This document shows, one piece after another, positions 13,104 through 46,499 of a stretch of DNA of 64,000 nt (positions are counted from its first letter, which is position 1; every line of letters begins with the position of its first letter). Origin of the DNA: a virus. Position numbers and translations under genes: made by a program. The notes beneath the pieces were generated by a model. That model was not told the DNA's origin. It ran no database searches and was given only the letters and a program-made list of their open reading frames with translations. Where the stretch lies: the IMG/VR virus record IMGVR_UViG_3300049215_000227, positions 1-64,000 of that record, one strand, 5' to 3'.

Positions 13104-13763
13104 TTATTCCTCGATATCCAGCGAGTGCAATATCTCTCGGAACACCTGGTCGATGTCCTTACCGTCAACAGAGATGGTGTGGGTATTGAACGCTTGAGAC
13201 ATCTCGTCCATATAGGTCGAGACAGTTTGCATGAAGGAGTTTCCTCTTGCTTCCATTGCGTCGCCAGCGGCGAATTCTTGCTTTGCTTGCTGCGCTTTCT
13301 TAAGGCCAGAAGAGGTATCTCCCTTAAGATAGATTATACTGTCATATACGCCATCAACAAGGGCATCTTCACCTGGAGAGGTGACATATCTCGCGAGGAT
13401 GGCAAGCATCTCTGTGTCGTTACCGCACGCCGTTCCGTAAGCCAAACCAGACAGAATGCCGCGATCCTGGACGATGAAGTCATACTCATTGAGAGCTGGA
13501 AGGATTACCTTCTCGAGGTGAATGGATCTGATTGCTTGGCTGATTAACTCTCTAGCAGGAGCAGTGAGTTGCTCGTCGTACTGCTTGTCGAGCATGATTC
13601 CTCGCAGCTGCATAGTGAGCGGCGCGTGAGGTGTGCCAGGCTCCTTCGTCTGCAAGACTTTATAGCCTTTAGCTCGTAGATGATCAACCAACTTTTGAGT
13701 CTGAGTAGTCTTGCCGACGCCCTCAGTCCCCTCGAAACACACGTATCTTGCCTTCTTCGTCAT
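13104..13763 (-). CDS. tmk: Thymidylate kinase
   Basis: 219 residues, the usual size. P-loop GTEGVGKTTQ near the N-terminus, TKEPGTP as the DR/EPG substrate loop, LISQAIRSIH before FIVQDRGILSGLAYG, and a short lid region. It phosphorylates dTMP to dTDP for DNA synthesis. The ATG is exactly six bases after a TATAAT box (13770-13775) with no room for a ribosome site, so the mRNA is predicted to be leaderless. It is followed by the exonuclease gene with a 3-bp gap. Confidence 0.92.
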   Translation of the reverse strand: MTKKARYVCFEGTEGVGKTTQTQKLVDHLRAKGYKVLQTKEPGTPHAPLTMQLRGIMLDKQYDEQLTAPARELISQAIRSIHLEKVILPALNEYDFIVQDRGILSGLAYGTACGNDTEMLAILARYVTSPGEDALVDGVYDSIIYLKGDTSSGLKKAQQAKQEFAAGDAMEARGNSFMQTVSTYMDEMSQAFNTHTISVDGKDIDQVFREILHSLDIEE

Positions 13764-14504: not shown

Positions 14505-15950
14505 TTATTTACCGATGTTACGGAACAAGCAGTTGAAGCGTGGGGTGTACACGAACAACGCACCGTACATAACGATCGCGAACTCAAGAGCGGTCGTCAC
14601 AATCGCGAAGTTGATCTTCGAGAGAGGAGCGAGCTGCTTGAAGCGCATGCACTCAGCGCTCATATCGAGCAAGAATGCTTCGCCAAGTCCTGGGAGTTGA
14701 GCATTAGCACTGATGTAGTTACCTGCACCAGCGTTTGCCCAGTTACCAGCAAACTTCTCAGTTCCAGCAGCGCCGCCAGCAGCGGAGATGTAGAACTTCC
14801 AGTACTTAACGCCAGCAGGCACGGAACCGATTGCAACAGTGATGTTGCTTGCGGAAGCGAGCACGCAGTCAGCGGAAGATACTGGCGAAGATTCACCAGA
14901 GTCATTCACAGCCGTAACCTTCACCTTATAGGTACCAGCTGCGAAGCCAGATCCTGAACCAGCGGAGGTTGCAGTTGCCGTGAAGGTAGCTGCAGGGCTT
15001 TGCGCATTAACAGCAAGCGAGCGAACGCCGCTGCGAGGACGCAAGAAGAGGTTTGGCTTGAGGTCGATCGCGCCAGCGGTGGTTTGCACCTTGGACACGT
15101 CGTAGCCAACCGTTTGGTTAGCAAGACCAGGAGCCGAACGGAACTGAGGATAGAACTGCTTCACGAAGGCCGAGAGAGCGGCTGGTTCGATGTGCAACTG
15201 ATCCGGAGCGCCGAAGTTTTCAAGAGCGATAACAGCAAGACGTTCGATGTCGTCTTGAGCCATCACTTGACCAGCGAGGTCAGCCTGGATAGAGCTGGAG
15301 TCGCCATATCCAAGGAAGTCACCGGCTTGCATTTGAGCATCGGTGTCGCCCTTTTGGAGCTGCTTCAACAGACCGCTCATCGCGATGCTGTTCACTGGAA
15401 GGTCGGCATCAGAACCGGTTTCAGCGCCAGTGGACTGATTCATGAAGTGAGCATGACCCCAATAGAGCTCGCGCTCGATATTCTTGAGGAGATGCATCGT
15501 GCCTTCTTTTGCCTGTTGAGCAACGATGTCGCCAACAGTGACACGGACGAGAGTCATCTGGTGAGAGACCCTACGGCGAGTGCCGAAGAACACGATCTTC
15601 TGACCGTCACGTACGTAGGTCGAATCTTCCTCTTGAGGAGCTCCGCCTTCGCCGATGTACGGAACAGAATCAGAACCGTAGCTGATCAAACGGTTGTACT
15701 GTTCGAATAGGTTGTATGCTTTGTCAACCGAGATGGCTGGCCAGAACTTGAGGTTCTTCATGTCGAAGGTGATGCTCTTGAGGGTAGCCTCGAGAGATTC
15801 AGCCTGCAACACACCACCATAAGTGAGGTCAGTTGGCTTACCAGCACCACCGTAACCGGCGGTGATAGCCTTATTCAGTGACTCGATGTCCGATGCGGAA
15901 ACGAGACCCTGATCGAGGCCTTGCAAAACTTGATTAATTGCGTCGTTCAT
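14505..15950 (-). CDS. Major capsid protein (HK97 fold) with inserted domain
   Basis: 481 residues. It lies directly after the scaffold-like gene and before a terminator, the standard place. The N-terminal arm has AGYGGAG (31-37) and GGVLQAESL (45-53), blocks shared with the C-terminal part of the prohead protease. Residues about 60-170 (FWPAISVDKAYNLFEQYNRLISYG... KNIERELYWGHAHF) fit the E-loop and spine of HK97-type capsids. Residues about 320-420 form an Ig/FN3-like insertion (FAAGTYKVKVTAVNDSGESSPVSS), probably displayed on the surface. The end returns to the P and A domain. AAAGGAG lies upstream of the ATG. Confidence 0.9.
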   Translation of the reverse strand: MNDAINQVLQGLDQGLVSASDIESLNKAITAGYGGAGKPTDLTYGGVLQAESLEATLKSITFDMKNLKFWPAISVDKAYNLFEQYNRLISYGSDSVPYIGEGGAPQEEDSTYVRDGQKIVFFGTRRRVSHQMTLVRVTVGDIVAQQAKEGTMHLLKNIERELYWGHAHFMNQSTGAETGSDADLPVNSIAMSGLLKQLQKGDTDAQMQAGDFLGYGDSSSIQADLAGQVMAQDDIERLAVIALENFGAPDQLHIEPAALSAFVKQFYPQFRSAPGLANQTVGYDVSKVQTTAGAIDLKPNLFLRPRSGVRSLAVNAQSPAATFTATATSAGSGSGFAAGTYKVKVTAVNDSGESSPVSSADCVLASASNITVAIGSVPAGVKYWKFYISAAGGAAGTEKFAGNWANAGAGNYISANAQLPGLGEAFLLDMSAECMRFKQLAPLSKINFAIVTTALEFAIVMYGALFVYTPRFNCLFRNIGK

Positions 15951-15968: not shown

Positions 15969-16865
15969 TTACGAAATCTTGTATTTGGCTGCGATCTTTG
16001 CGAGATCTTGTCCCATTTCAGCTCTGGTGATATCCAGAGAGTCAACCTTGGTTCCAGACTTCTTCAGCTCAAAGAGCTTGGAAGCAACATCTGCTTTGGA
16101 AAGAGGTTCGCCACCGTCTTCATCGCTCTTGCGAAGAGGAACAGCATTAGCGGTCACGCCCTTAGCAGGAACAGGTTGATCTGCAATCTTGTTAACGAGA
16201 TTGAGAATCGTGGACAGCTTGTCTTCGAGAGGCTTTACTCTCTCTTCAACAAAGCTCTTCATCAATGCTTCAGTCTCTTCTTGGGACTTCTTCAGTCCAT
16301 GCATAACAAGCTTTTGAACGTCAGCGTCGACTTCTTCAGGACTTTTGTTCTCGCCCTTTTTCATTCCAGCGAGATCTGCGAGCTTACCAATAGCCTTCTT
16401 TTCTTCGGCTTCATGGCGCTCTCCGCCCTTAGCGTCCTTGTTCTTTTTCTTCTTGTCGTCTTCGTCTTCGTCGTCGGCCTTAGCAACCTTATGCTGGGTT
16501 TCACCAGGATCAGATTCGCTGTTCTTGCCGCTCATGTCACGCTTCTTACCTTCGTGAGAACCGTGCTCAGGACCTTGTCCGTGTTCCATGCCTTCACCAG
16601 CAACTGGCTTGTGCTTGCCACCATCTGGATCAGACTGACGATTGTGGCCTTCTGCCTTTTCAGCATCTTCGCCTTCGTCTTCGTCCTTGTCTTTGTCTTC
16701 CTTCTTAGCGTGCAAGTCGCCATTAGAAGGCTTGCCGGCGATTCCTTCGCCCGGACCTTTAACTTCGATCTCAGCAGCACTGAAGCGAGACTTCTTAAGC
16801 TCTTCAAGCTCGAGAAGCGTCTCGTCGATCAGGTCTGTGAGGCTCTTTCTTAGTTCCTCTTTCAT
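15969..16865 (-). CDS. Scaffold-like head assembly protein
   Basis: 298 residues, highly charged throughout. A helical N-terminus (LRKSLTDLIDETLLELEELKKS) is followed by a long low-complexity Asp/Glu/Lys/His middle and a helical C-terminal third with KPLEDKLSTILNLVNKIADQ. Its composition and its place between protease and capsid are typical of head scaffolds. A scaffold is expected to be degraded by the prohead protease during maturation. No motif proves the role. It has a good GAGGAG ribosome site. Confidence 0.7.
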   Translation of the reverse strand: MKEELRKSLTDLIDETLLELEELKKSRFSAAEIEVKGPGEGIAGKPSNGDLHAKKEDKDKDEDEGEDAEKAEGHNRQSDPDGGKHKPVAGEGMEHGQGPEHGSHEGKKRDMSGKNSESDPGETQHKVAKADDEDEDDKKKKNKDAKGGERHEAEEKKAIGKLADLAGMKKGENKSPEEVDADVQKLVMHGLKKSQEETEALMKSFVEERVKPLEDKLSTILNLVNKIADQPVPAKGVTANAVPLRKSDEDGGEPLSKADVASKLFELKKSGTKVDSLDITRAEMGQDLAKIAAKYKIS

Positions 16866-17384: not shown

Positions 17385-19067
17385 CTATGTTGCTATTGCT
17401 CCTAAGAACAACTTATGTAGCTTCTCCATAGGAAAAGATTTGCCACAATCTCTACACTTGACTTGGTATTTAGAGTAAATCTGCTCCTTACCACAGTCAT
17501 CGCAAGTTACGTATTTAAAGCTGCCTCTACCGTCATCCAGCGACTCAGCTTGCAGAACGCCGCCCCCGGTATTAGCGGTTGGGACGCCAGCCCCGCCGTA
17601 TCCAGCTGATAATGCTTTCTTAAGATGCTTCTTTGCGTGCACCTTAGCTTTAGCCGGTGGAAGTAGCTTCTTATAAGCTTCAACGACCTTCTTGACATAA
17701 TCAGAGTCATTAATGCCGCTAGGGCCACCCTCTTTGTATTTTTCCCAAGCACCTTTAAGTCCATGATTCCACGAATGAATAAGCATGTCTAAGTTCTTAG
17801 TCTTGTGCTTATTTCTGCTTAGCAAGGCATCCGCAAAGTCATATGCGGCTTGAGGATTGGAGTTGAAGAGGTCGGTGAACATCTTGTGGTTAGCCTTCAT
17901 ATCCTTAGCTGCTTCTGCAAACTTAGGATATTTGGCGGAGAGCTTTGGATCGTTCCTCAAGATGTAACCTGCTGCGTTAGGCATCATGCCGAACATGCCG
18001 CCAGCTACTTGGCCTGCATGCATGCTGCTCGGATCTCTGATCGCCTTATGAGCATAATTGAGACCGCCGCTAGACTCGATCTGACCGATAGCGCCGAGAA
18101 GAGGGTTTCTCTTAGCGAACTGCTTGTACATCTCTTGATGGTTGGCAGGCATCCTGGTGAGATCCATGGGATGCGCTTCCTTGAATTGAGTTTGCTGCTG
18201 AACTGTGGGAGCGGGAGCATGCGCAGTTTGAGGCGCTAACGCTGCAGCACCGGTCATCATGGCGCCAAGAGCAGCTTGCTTCAAGCCCTTCTCCATCTCC
18301 TCGTTCTTTATCTCCTCGACCAGCTCGTGGATCTTCGAGACGTTGCTCTGAATCTTAGCTTCCAAAGCGTACTGCAGGATCTCTTGCTTAGTTGGGATGT
18401 CGATGGCTGAATTGTCGCCCTTCATGAGCTCAACGATCTTCTCGATGTTGCTTCTCACCTTAGAGGCTGACGCGTCGCGAGCGATGTGACGGAACGAGGG
18501 GATGTTCGTTTCCGCAAGATGTATAACAGATTTGATCAATTCCATATCCGCTGCGTCATCGGACTGAGACTTATCAAGGTTCAGCGGTTCAACGAGCGTA
18601 GCGACGTTCGCAGGAGTAAAAGTAAGTGCGACGCTATGGATTTTTGTTCGAGCAAGAAGAGATGGATCGGAGATCCCTCTTGAAATTACTCCGCCTTCTA
18701 CGGAAGCTTTCAGTTTCAGCGGGCAATCCGTCTTATGAACATTTCTCAAAATGGCAGCGGCGGCTTTTGCATTTGGATGATCTTCATCGTCATATAAGAA
18801 GCCGCGGACATATAAGTACGGCGCCTTAACCTTGTTCCAGTAGTAGCGCTGACGGTCGTCGTCGCAATCTTCTTCCTTAAAGATTTTCTTGGCGGTAGAG
18901 ACCCTACCAATAGAGTTGAAGAAGCCCTTACCGTGGTTATCGTTTAGACGACCCTTTCCGGCAAGAAGATCTGCTATATCAGCTCCCTCAACGGAGAGCA
19001 TCTCACCCTGGGTATCCCTGAGTTGGGACCCGGCGCACATATCAATCTCAAGTGGTTTCTTAGACAT
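17385..19067 (-). CDS. Prohead protease fused to transglycosylase-like domain and Zn ribbon
   Basis: 560 residues, about twice the size of a simple prohead protease. Residues 1-165 fit the herpesvirus/T4 gp21-type serine protease, with His45 in LNDNHGKGF and Ser122 in LKASVEGG. Residues about 305-470 resemble a lytic transglycosylase, with Glu331 in AIGQIESSGG and FGMMPNAAGYIL. Residues 484-510 carry KALSAGYGGAGVPT...GGVLQAESL, shared with the capsid protein. Cys522/525/538/541 form a Zn ribbon. Self-cleavage could free a virion-borne murein enzyme (inference). The ATG is ten bases after TATAAT without a ribosome site. It ends in TAG. Confidence 0.85.
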   Translation of the reverse strand: MSKKPLEIDMCAGSQLRDTQGEMLSVEGADIADLLAGKGRLNDNHGKGFFNSIGRVSTAKKIFKEEDCDDDRQRYYWNKVKAPYLYVRGFLYDDEDHPNAKAAAAILRNVHKTDCPLKLKASVEGGVISRGISDPSLLARTKIHSVALTFTPANVATLVEPLNLDKSQSDDAADMELIKSVIHLAETNIPSFRHIARDASASKVRSNIEKIVELMKGDNSAIDIPTKQEILQYALEAKIQSNVSKIHELVEEIKNEEMEKGLKQAALGAMMTGAAALAPQTAHAPAPTVQQQTQFKEAHPMDLTRMPANHQEMYKQFAKRNPLLGAIGQIESSGGLNYAHKAIRDPSSMHAGQVAGGMFGMMPNAAGYILRNDPKLSAKYPKFAEAAKDMKANHKMFTDLFNSNPQAAYDFADALLSRNKHKTKNLDMLIHSWNHGLKGAWEKYKEGGPSGINDSDYVKKVVEAYKKLLPPAKAKVHAKKHLKKALSAGYGGAGVPTANTGGGVLQAESLDDGRGSFKYVTCDDCGKEQIYSKYQVKCRDCGKSFPMEKLHKLFLGAIAT

Positions 19068-20326: not shown

Positions 20327-20484
20327 TTCGTTAACTCCTTTTGCTTCAAAGCAGTGTCAGCTTTTACAGCTTCAATTTCTGCTTTAACCTTTTCTAGCTC
20401 CAACTTTGCTCTTTCAACTTGAAGTTTACCCAACTCAATTTGAGTATCCATCATTGATGCTTCGTATTCTTGCTGTGTAGCCAT
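20323..20484 (-). CDS. 53-residue coiled-coil peptide
   Basis: A very short gene almost wholly heptad-like (TQIELGKLQVERAKLELEKVKAEIEAVKADTALKQKELTK). It overlaps the kinase-like stop by one base (TAATG) and the next start by ATGA, so it is read as part of a coupled chain, and it has an AGGAG site. It could pair with the larger coiled-coil protein that follows. Confidence 0.6.
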   Translation of the reverse strand: MATQQEYEASMMDTQIELGKLQVERAKLELEKVKAEIEAVKADTALKQKELTK

Positions 20485-21311
20485 TAGGTCTCCTTATCTT
20501 TCAATCTCTTGCAGAAAAACTTTAGCAACTCAATCTCTTCATTGGTGAGTCCAGGAGTTGCAGTTTGTGAACCCAGTATCTTGCCGAGCTCCAAATTCAA
20601 GAAGTGTCTCACACTTCTTTCTACCTCATCGTACGCAGCGCCCTTGCCTTTTATGATCCGTTTGGAGAGGACCTCGTTGATGATGTTGGCGCGCTCGAGT
20701 TTAAGTTGTTCCTTAGTCTTTGGCGCTCCACTTCCGTTATCAGAACTGGACCTATCACTTGCAGCCTGATCAGAAGCACTAGCAGTCTCCGCGTCTCCGG
20801 ATTCCTTAGCCACGTTCCCCTTTTTACTCTCGGTCGGTAACGGCTGGACTGCATCTGGAAAATCCTTTAACGTCTTGCGCTCAAAACCGTACTTATCGGC
20901 CATAGCTGAATAAAGCGATCTAGCTTTGACGAACTGAATCTTGGTTAACGGCTCGTTGTTCTCAACGCAGCGTTGCCAGTGAGCCTCGCTGTTAGGATCG
21001 TGCATGAGGATGCGCATCACCTCCATGTTGTTCTCGATCTCTCGTAGAACCTCCATGGCCTCATCGTCGATGAGAGGGGCGCGATTGTACACCTGTGGCC
21101 AGACCATCTCGCCGTAATGGGAGCGATCTAGAACAACGTCTCGGCCCTGGATGCTAGTGAGTAAGTCGACCATCTCGCCGACATATTGATCGGGTGATGT
21201 GCCCTTGGGAGGAGCCGACATGTGGATGATTTCAAACCCCTGACTCTCAAATAGTTGAGCGACAGAAGATTTACCGGTCCTATCAAGACCTTCAAGAATT
21301 ATTAGCGCCAT
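20484..21311 (-). CDS. P-loop nucleoside/nucleotide kinase-like protein
   Basis: 275 residues. Residues 1-150 look like a thymidylate or deoxynucleoside kinase: LIILEGLDRTGKSSVAQ (P-loop GLDRTGKS), VVLDRSHYGEMVWPQVY (DRSHYGE) and a C-terminal QFVKARSLYSAM helix. Residues about 155-195 are a Ser/Asp/Ala linker and 195-275 a helical tail. It is the second kinase here besides tmk. It may act on a modified or different nucleoside; the substrate is not evident. The ATG lies ten bases after TATAAT. Confidence 0.75.
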   Translation of the reverse strand: MALIILEGLDRTGKSSVAQLFESQGFEIIHMSAPPKGTSPDQYVGEMVDLLTSIQGRDVVLDRSHYGEMVWPQVYNRAPLIDDEAMEVLREIENNMEVMRILMHDPNSEAHWQRCVENNEPLTKIQFVKARSLYSAMADKYGFERKTLKDFPDAVQPLPTESKKGNVAKESGDAETASASDQAASDRSSSDNGSGAPKTKEQLKLERANIINEVLSKRIIKGKGAAYDEVERSVRHFLNLELGKILGSQTATPGLTNEEIELLKFFCKRLKDKET

Positions 21312-45617: not shown

Positions 45618-46355
45618 ATGGGAATCAGAGAAGACTTTCAACCTTACGTAGACGGCAACAACTTGATGGCACCGCACCAGGTTGCACCCAACTCTGGCAG
45701 GGGTTCTGACAATGGAACCATGTACACGAGCGAGTACTTCATCATGCTGAAGAAGAACAGCGTGCTCACCGAAGAGGACAAGGAAGACTACGAGGATCGA
45801 ATTGAGCCGTGCATCGACCTAGAAGGAATGCTCAACCGTGCACCGAATGACTCCGATCAAGAAGGACCGGACGACTACTATGGGGTTCTCAACGGCTGCA
45901 TGGAGCTGGGAAACGTCTCGATCCCGCGAAGATTCCTGAAGGCCTTGATCCGCAACCTTGGCTTCTTGAACAATAGCCAGCCGGAAAAATGGACGCTGAA
46001 CTCGTTCTTGGCTCGCCAGATGCAACTTACTTGCTGCATGGTTAACGCCTCATTCCCTAGTTGGGTAAACCCTCTTCACTGGCTGGTACGAATTTTAGCC
46101 AGCCCACTGTATCTCTACAGCGCAATCTGCTTGCTCGTCAGCTGCATCGGTACGGATACCGGAGACACGGACGCCAGGAGACTCGCTTGGCATCTCGGAA
46201 ACAACGTTGGCAAGAGATCGCTCCTGTGCTGGCTGGCGTACAAGGTTTGGCTGCGAAGACTTTACAAGGATTATGCTGGCGGGATGAGCGACGTCGCGAA
46301 GATCTATTACGGACCCGCGGGAGATAACGCTTACAGTAGATGGTGGCGCACCTAG
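45618..46355 (+). CDS. Conserved phage protein with hydrophobic segments
   Basis: 245 residues. The N-terminal half contains SDNGTMYTSEYFIML and DQEGPDDYYGVLNGCMELGN, a signature I know from uncharacterised proteins in other phages. The middle has two hydrophobic helices (FPSWVNPLHWLVRILASPLYLYSAICLLV) and the end has ARRLAWHLGNNVGKRSLLCWLAYKVWLRRLY. It may sit on or in the membrane. The role is unknown. It ends in TAG within the 3' end of the tRNA on the other strand. Confidence 0.7.
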   Translation: MGIREDFQPYVDGNNLMAPHQVAPNSGRGSDNGTMYTSEYFIMLKKNSVLTEEDKEDYEDRIEPCIDLEGMLNRAPNDSDQEGPDDYYGVLNGCMELGNVSIPRRFLKALIRNLGFLNNSQPEKWTLNSFLARQMQLTCCMVNASFPSWVNPLHWLVRILASPLYLYSAICLLVSCIGTDTGDTDARRLAWHLGNNVGKRSLLCWLAYKVWLRRLYKDYAGGMSDVAKIYYGPAGDNAYSRWWRT

Positions 46356-46418
46356 AGGGACTCGAACCCCCGTCGCACGATGTTAGAGATCGCCGTTCTG
46401 CCGCTGAACTATAGGTGC
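46344..46418 (-). tRNA. tRNA with CUA anticodon (amber suppressor)
   Basis: 75 bases with a seven-bp acceptor (GCACCTA/TAGGTGC), D arm GTTC/GAAC, anticodon stem GCGAT/ATCGT, loop CTCTAAC (U33, anticodon CUA), five-base variable region, T arm GGGGG-TTCGAGT-CCCTC, discriminator G and an encoded CCA. All arms pair. It should read UAG. The amino acid is unclear; G73 is compatible with Gln or Trp types among others. Confidence 0.85.
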
Positions 46419-46423
46419 AAGAT

Positions 46424-46499
46424 TGGAGATCCCAGCGGGATTCGAACCCGCGACCGTGCGATTTAGAGTTGCCCGCTCTACCAACTGAGCTATGGGATC
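46424..46499 (-). tRNA. tRNA with CUA-like loop and weak anticodon stem
   Basis: 76 bases: acceptor GATCCCA/TGGGATC, D arm GCTC/GAGC, T arm GCGGG-TTCGAAT-CCCGC, discriminator U and encoded CCA. By standard numbering the anticodon loop is CTCTAAA, giving CUA. The stem GGCAA/TCGCA has only three of five pairs. The rest is well formed, so the anticodon arm is either degenerate or recently changed. Confidence 0.7.

Follow-up and report, generated by a model that had tools for sequence, protein, structure and literature searches.

We analysed a stretch of 64,000 nucleotides (hereafter the window) from the 176.5-kb virus record IMGVR_UViG_3300049215_000227 and identified in it a gene whose product joins a head-maturation protease to a probable lytic transglycosylase of the SLT type. 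With a probability of about 55%, we propose that this capsid-maturation protease doubles as a carrier, by which the transglycosylase is brought into the prohead, cut loose and delivered with the DNA. The computed evidence supports this proposal through the domain architecture, SLT homology, a copy of the N-terminal arm of the major capsid protein (MCP), a cleavage code, the conservation of both sites flanking the transglycosylase and the exchange of cargo among relatives; what we infer from it is that the protein is cut, packaged and delivered and that the enzyme is active and acts in entry. The initial annotation of this DNA had placed a three-part fusion of prohead protease, transglycosylase-like domain and Zn ribbon at 17385-19067. 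The coordinates were confirmed and the three-part reading holds, with the middle part a probable SLT domain, but the gene lies on the minus strand, with no such frame on the plus strand, and a fourth part, the MCP-arm copy at residues 485-512, had been overlooked, as had a hydrophobic segment at approximately residues 267-281. The gene and its parts are as follows, with predicted cuts marked by an arrow.

17385..19067, minus strand: whole fusion gene, 560 amino acids, stop codon TAG
18570..19067, minus strand: head-maturation protease core, residues 1-166, assigned by phrog_1028 and invariant residues
18933-18935, minus strand: His45, invariant in 25 aligned homologs
18702-18704, minus strand: Ser122 of the SxEG motif, invariant in 25 aligned homologs
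18288..18569, minus strand: linker, residues 167-260, between predicted cuts K166↓S167 and K260↓G261, with K179↓S180 within it
18168..18287, minus strand: hydrophobic Ala/Gly-rich stretch, residues 261-300, the highest hydrophobicity of the protein and the start of the predicted cargo
17640..18170, minus strand: probable SLT lytic transglycosylase, residues 300-476, assigned by PF01464 matches of relatives and an invariant Glu
18075-18077, minus strand: Glu331, invariant in 33 homologous domains
17532..17615, minus strand: copy of the MCP N-terminal arm, residues 485-512, directly after predicted cut K484↓A485
17388..17525, minus strand: predicted four-Cys (C4) Zn ribbon, residues 515-560, with Cys522, 525, 538 and 541

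By sequence, the N-terminal 166 residues belong to the SPO1/Herelleviridae type of head-maturation protease. In a profile search, residues 18-156 matched phrog_1028, 'head maturation protease', with an E value of 6e-11, and His45 and Ser122, previously proposed as active-site residues, proved to be correctly assigned. The equivalent H and SxEG are kept in the proteases of Mx1, SPO1, Staphylococcus, Listeria, Lactobacillus and Bacteroides phages.

The middle domain was assigned through its relatives. Pfam SLT (PF01464) was matched by nine of 33 homologous middle domains (best E 6.3e-7), and the close relative L001 (76% identical) scored above the Pfam curated cut-off (21.4 versus 21.3 bits, profile positions 8-113 of 117). 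The catalytic-type Glu belongs to an ES motif, and a G-[ML]-M-P-like motif comes after it, with FGMMP kept in most of the 33 domains. These matches suggest that residues 300-476, approximately, are probably an SLT lytic transglycosylase, so that the transglycosylase-like domain with Glu331 noticed at first inspection holds as a probable SLT domain. A PDB profile search with the middle domain gave nothing meaningful, and tblastn of this domain against known phages gave no significant match. PF01464 detected no second SLT gene in the virus record, in a search that also missed the present gene. It is quite unlikely that the domain is catalytically idle or structural, for example an SLT-descended spacer of the prohead core; such a role would suit a slot that may be empty in relatives and a window sequence that falls under SLT detection, while the invariance of Glu331 and the other motif residues across homologous domains, at identities down to 23%, fits a kept activity.

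The proposal that the enzyme is cut loose depends on the specificity of the protease, for which two neighbouring head genes are informative.

15969..16865, minus strand: scaffold-like acidic protein, with eight [LIMVF]xK[SA] sites versus 1.36 expected
14505..15950, minus strand: MCP (phrog_752, E 7.6e-56), with predicted cut K27↓A28 preceding the arm

From these and related sequences, together with conserved sites in the protease, we inferred the cleavage code [LM]xK↓[S>A>G], with Lys at P1. Among 73 genes of the window, only that of the scaffold reached p<0.01 for [LIMVF]xK[SAG]. The SPO1 scaffold carries 11 [LIMVF]xK[SA] sites versus 1.07 expected, and the same pattern is enriched in the scaffolds of Staphylococcus, Enterococcus, Lactobacillus, Bacillus Troll and Myxococcus Mx1 phages (scaffold genes of L134, L135, L137, L138, L034 and L033). 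In 57 related scaffolds, 459 sites were counted versus 72.8 expected, a 6-fold excess, with a preference for Leu or Met at P3 and for Ser > Ala > Gly at P1'. The z-score for this set overstates the independent evidence because the scaffolds are related to each other, and replication of the code is better judged from the reference phages. In addition, the predicted cut K27↓A28 of the window MCP corresponds to K24↓S25 of a Staphylococcus phage MCP, of which PDB chain 9row_B begins at S25, right after K24 and just ahead of the arm. It is possible, judging from these patterns, that [LIMVF]xK[SA] is a general cleavage code of SPO1-type heads; in the literature searched, no description of a Lys-directed code for SPO1-like phages was found. 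The code [LM]xK↓[S/A/G] is directly testable in such phages, including the well-studied ones of Bacillus and Staphylococcus, and, if right, it predicts which head proteins are cleaved and offers a lead on how enzymes get into such heads.

Within the protease itself, the pattern occurs at LDK166↓S, LIK179↓S, MEK260↓G and LKK484↓A. The sites K166↓S167, K179↓S180 and K484↓A485 are nearly invariant among aligned homologs, the first two in all forms, and the linker that follows K166 is probably helical, judged by eye. The SLT cargo is flanked by K260↓G261 and K484↓A485, and a pre-cargo hxK site was found in 35 of 35 SLT forms, versus a mean of 18.3 and a maximum of 27 after shuffling (with a looser P1' set). 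The earlier suggestion that the protease frees the murein enzyme thus gains indirect support from an enzyme lying between two sites that match a code derived independently from scaffold proteins and a mature MCP chain, with the cutting itself still a prediction. Alternatively, the transglycosylase may stay joined to the protease, with only the arm and ribbon removed at K484, and act or be ejected as a single protease-SLT protein. In its favour, no site is stronger than the C-terminal one, which cargo-free forms also have, and SPN3US gp245 loses a C-terminal propeptide only (PMC10052503). Nevertheless, we consider this alternative unlikely, given the presence of the pre-cargo site in every SLT form and the near invariance of K166↓S167 and K179↓S180 in all forms. 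An internal translation start at MEKG was ruled out, as relatives show CTT, TTA, CTA, ATA or GTT there.

The hydrophobic stretch at residues 261-300 looks by eye like a signal peptide. In most SLT forms this N terminus of the predicted cargo is hydrophobic, Lys-led and has an AxA-like end (by eye), which would also suit an enzyme freed from unassembled protease and directed to the periplasm to aid lysis of the producing cell. We regard this explanation as very unlikely, since an enzyme fused to a prohead protease would be poorly timed for lysis and the GNAT or HEAT cargos carried in the same slot by relatives have no lysis role.

The C-terminal part of the protein shares sequence with the capsid protein. 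Residues 485-512 (ALSAGYGGAGVPTANTGGGVLQAESLD) copy the MCP of the same phage from residue 28 (AITAGYGGAGKPTDLTYGGVLQAESLE), and in related loci the arm motif was found in two genes only, those for MCP and protease. An arm resembling that of the phage's own MCP was also detected in the proteases of SPO1, Staphylococcus, Listeria, Enterococcus, Lactobacillus, Troll and Mx1 phages (six Herelleviridae and Mx1), with scores of 52-120 versus shuffled means of about 8-16. Since seven reference proteases have their version of the arm, its copy is an old trait of such proteases; inspection by eye showed no clear copy in that of Bacteroides phage DAC23. Following the arm, the Cys pairs C522xxC525 and C538xxC541 have ribbon-like spacing, and each Cys is at least 90% conserved, consistent with the four-Cys Zn ribbon of the initial annotation. 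Pfam matches for this predicted ribbon were weak ones only.

The fusion architecture is not due to chance, because approximately 75 distinct homologous open reading frames were found. Those that were complete enough share a common frame of protease, probably helical linker, arm and ribbon, and the slot between linker and arm holds an SLT domain in approximately 36 homologs and is empty in 12. It contains a GNAT acetyltransferase in L120 (E 2.8e-6), HEAT-repeat proteins in L116 and L118, and hydrophobic linkers in further homologs. A HEAT/LRV-type insert in L112 is placed between arm and ribbon and is absent from its well-supported sister L110, indicating that at least one exchange was recent. 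The number of exchanges is not well counted, owing to the poor resolution of the protease-core tree and the labelling of the SLT forms L086 and L101 as 'other' in the tree run. As relatives have other cargo or none, what is conserved is the slot rather than the murein enzyme, and the originally proposed connection of capsid maturation with wall penetration becomes one case in a broader picture. We tentatively suggest, at somewhat less than even odds, that the protease of this large uncultivated SPO1-related phage group is a general loading platform, in which a slot between self-cut sites, closed by an MCP-arm copy, would allow enzymes swapped by evolution to be packaged, freed and delivered without a targeting signal of their own.

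Some variants of this region were observed in addition. The cargos of L116, L118 and L112 are approximately 500-600 residues long and combine a Cys/His-bearing domain (..GxCxxEAKxxGHCGN..) with HEAT or LRV repeats. Poly-lysine inserts lie between arm and Zn ribbon in L111 and L126, and that of L111 has at its end an additional possible cut site, SLEK↓G. The cargo-free proteases L020 and L021 have a C-terminal extension of approximately 110 residues past the ribbon, with no match known.

In the carrier mechanism proposed here, the precursor would enter the prohead core, where its C-terminal MCP-arm copy and Zn ribbon probably tether it to the shell or scaffold. Once activated, the protease would cut after Lys at [LM]xK↓[S/A/G] in the scaffold and in MCP (K27↓A28), and would also cleave itself at K166, K179, K260 and K484. 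The last two of these cuts would release a 224-residue transglycosylase (261-484) with a hydrophobic, signal-peptide-like N terminus, which would remain in the head, exit with the DNA, reach the membrane or periplasm and open the peptidoglycan for genome entry. Self-cleavage has a precedent in SPN3US gp245, which removes its own C-terminal propeptide (PMC10052503), and a prohead protease was found in virions of the SPO1-like phage Bc431v3 (PMC3601020). In Staph1N, the annotation lists Pro as a virion component. If this mechanism is right, it would show a capsid protease in double duty as a cargo carrier.

Several observations weigh against this mechanism. The middle domain of the window protein itself has no Pfam SLT match, and the scaffolds of Listeria phage LMTA-148 and Bacteroides phage DAC23 show no significant excess of code sites. 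The pre-cargo site is the weakest, because its P1' is mostly Gly, just moderately favoured in scaffolds (48 versus 27.8), and in some members Asn or Asp, which are disfavoured in scaffolds and fit poorly. Furthermore, prohead proteases can be degraded and lost, as in T4, and the cargo therefore need not stay in the head.

Compared with known systems, the window protein resembles the SPO1-type Herelleviridae protease (SPO1 gp3.2, Staphylococcus Pro; phrog_1028) in its H and SxEG core, the gene order portal-protease-scaffold-MCP and the copy of its own MCP arm, whereas the Herelleviridae reference proteases compared lack a cargo domain and a Zn ribbon. The putative prohead protease of Myxococcus phage Mx1 (WNM70322.1, 1239 amino acids) shares a core 38% identical, an MCP-arm copy and a large extra region. 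However, its approximately 960 extra residues (L033:7962-11681) follow the arm and have no SLT match, giving only a weak PI3/PI4-kinase match near the end. T4 gp21 is a prohead protease that cleaves itself and many head proteins, after Glu. Likewise, SPN3US gp245 self-cleaves and cuts many head proteins at a short motif, after Glu (PMC10052503). The window protease differs from both in its inferred P1 Lys and its fused enzyme cargo. The closest concept is that of the polyvalent proteins of phages and conjugative elements, in which peptidase, lysozyme and effector domains share a single polypeptide believed to be packaged and the peptidases are zincin-type metallopeptidases (PMC5512222). The searched portion of that text does not describe a carrier role for a capsid-maturation protease (PMC5512222). 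The window protein is multidomain and encoded among head genes, and its packaging in the head is predicted. In T7, gp16 carries an SLT-type transglycosylase in the head and is ejected at entry; it is an inner-core protein without protease, self-cleavage or arm, unlike the window protein. No description of a protease-transglycosylase fusion was found in the literature searched.

The gene neighbours are those of a head-gene region, namely terminase, portal, scaffold-like acidic protein and SPO1-type MCP, and the order portal, protease, scaffold, SPO1-type MCP is present in the window with small extra genes interspersed. One of the genes between portal and protease (20484-21311, minus strand) is thymidylate-kinase-like by weak profile matches, and another such gene near the head genes (13104-13763, minus strand) was recognized by a sequence motif only. 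A PADLOC defence-system scan of the window protein gave no match. Three relatives occur in metagenome-assembled genomes labelled Saprospiraceae, Flavobacteriaceae and Cytophagales, which hint at Bacteroidota hosts, the binning of viral contigs being weak evidence. TAG is the stop codon in 11 of 73 chosen window genes, including those for protease, terminase and DNA polymerase, and the TAG-ending genes often have a second in-frame stop 3-11 codons further on. Two tRNA genes with the anticodon CUA lie side by side at 46344-46499 on the minus strand; they were labelled tRNA-Pyl by ARAGORN and are amber suppressors by anticodon.
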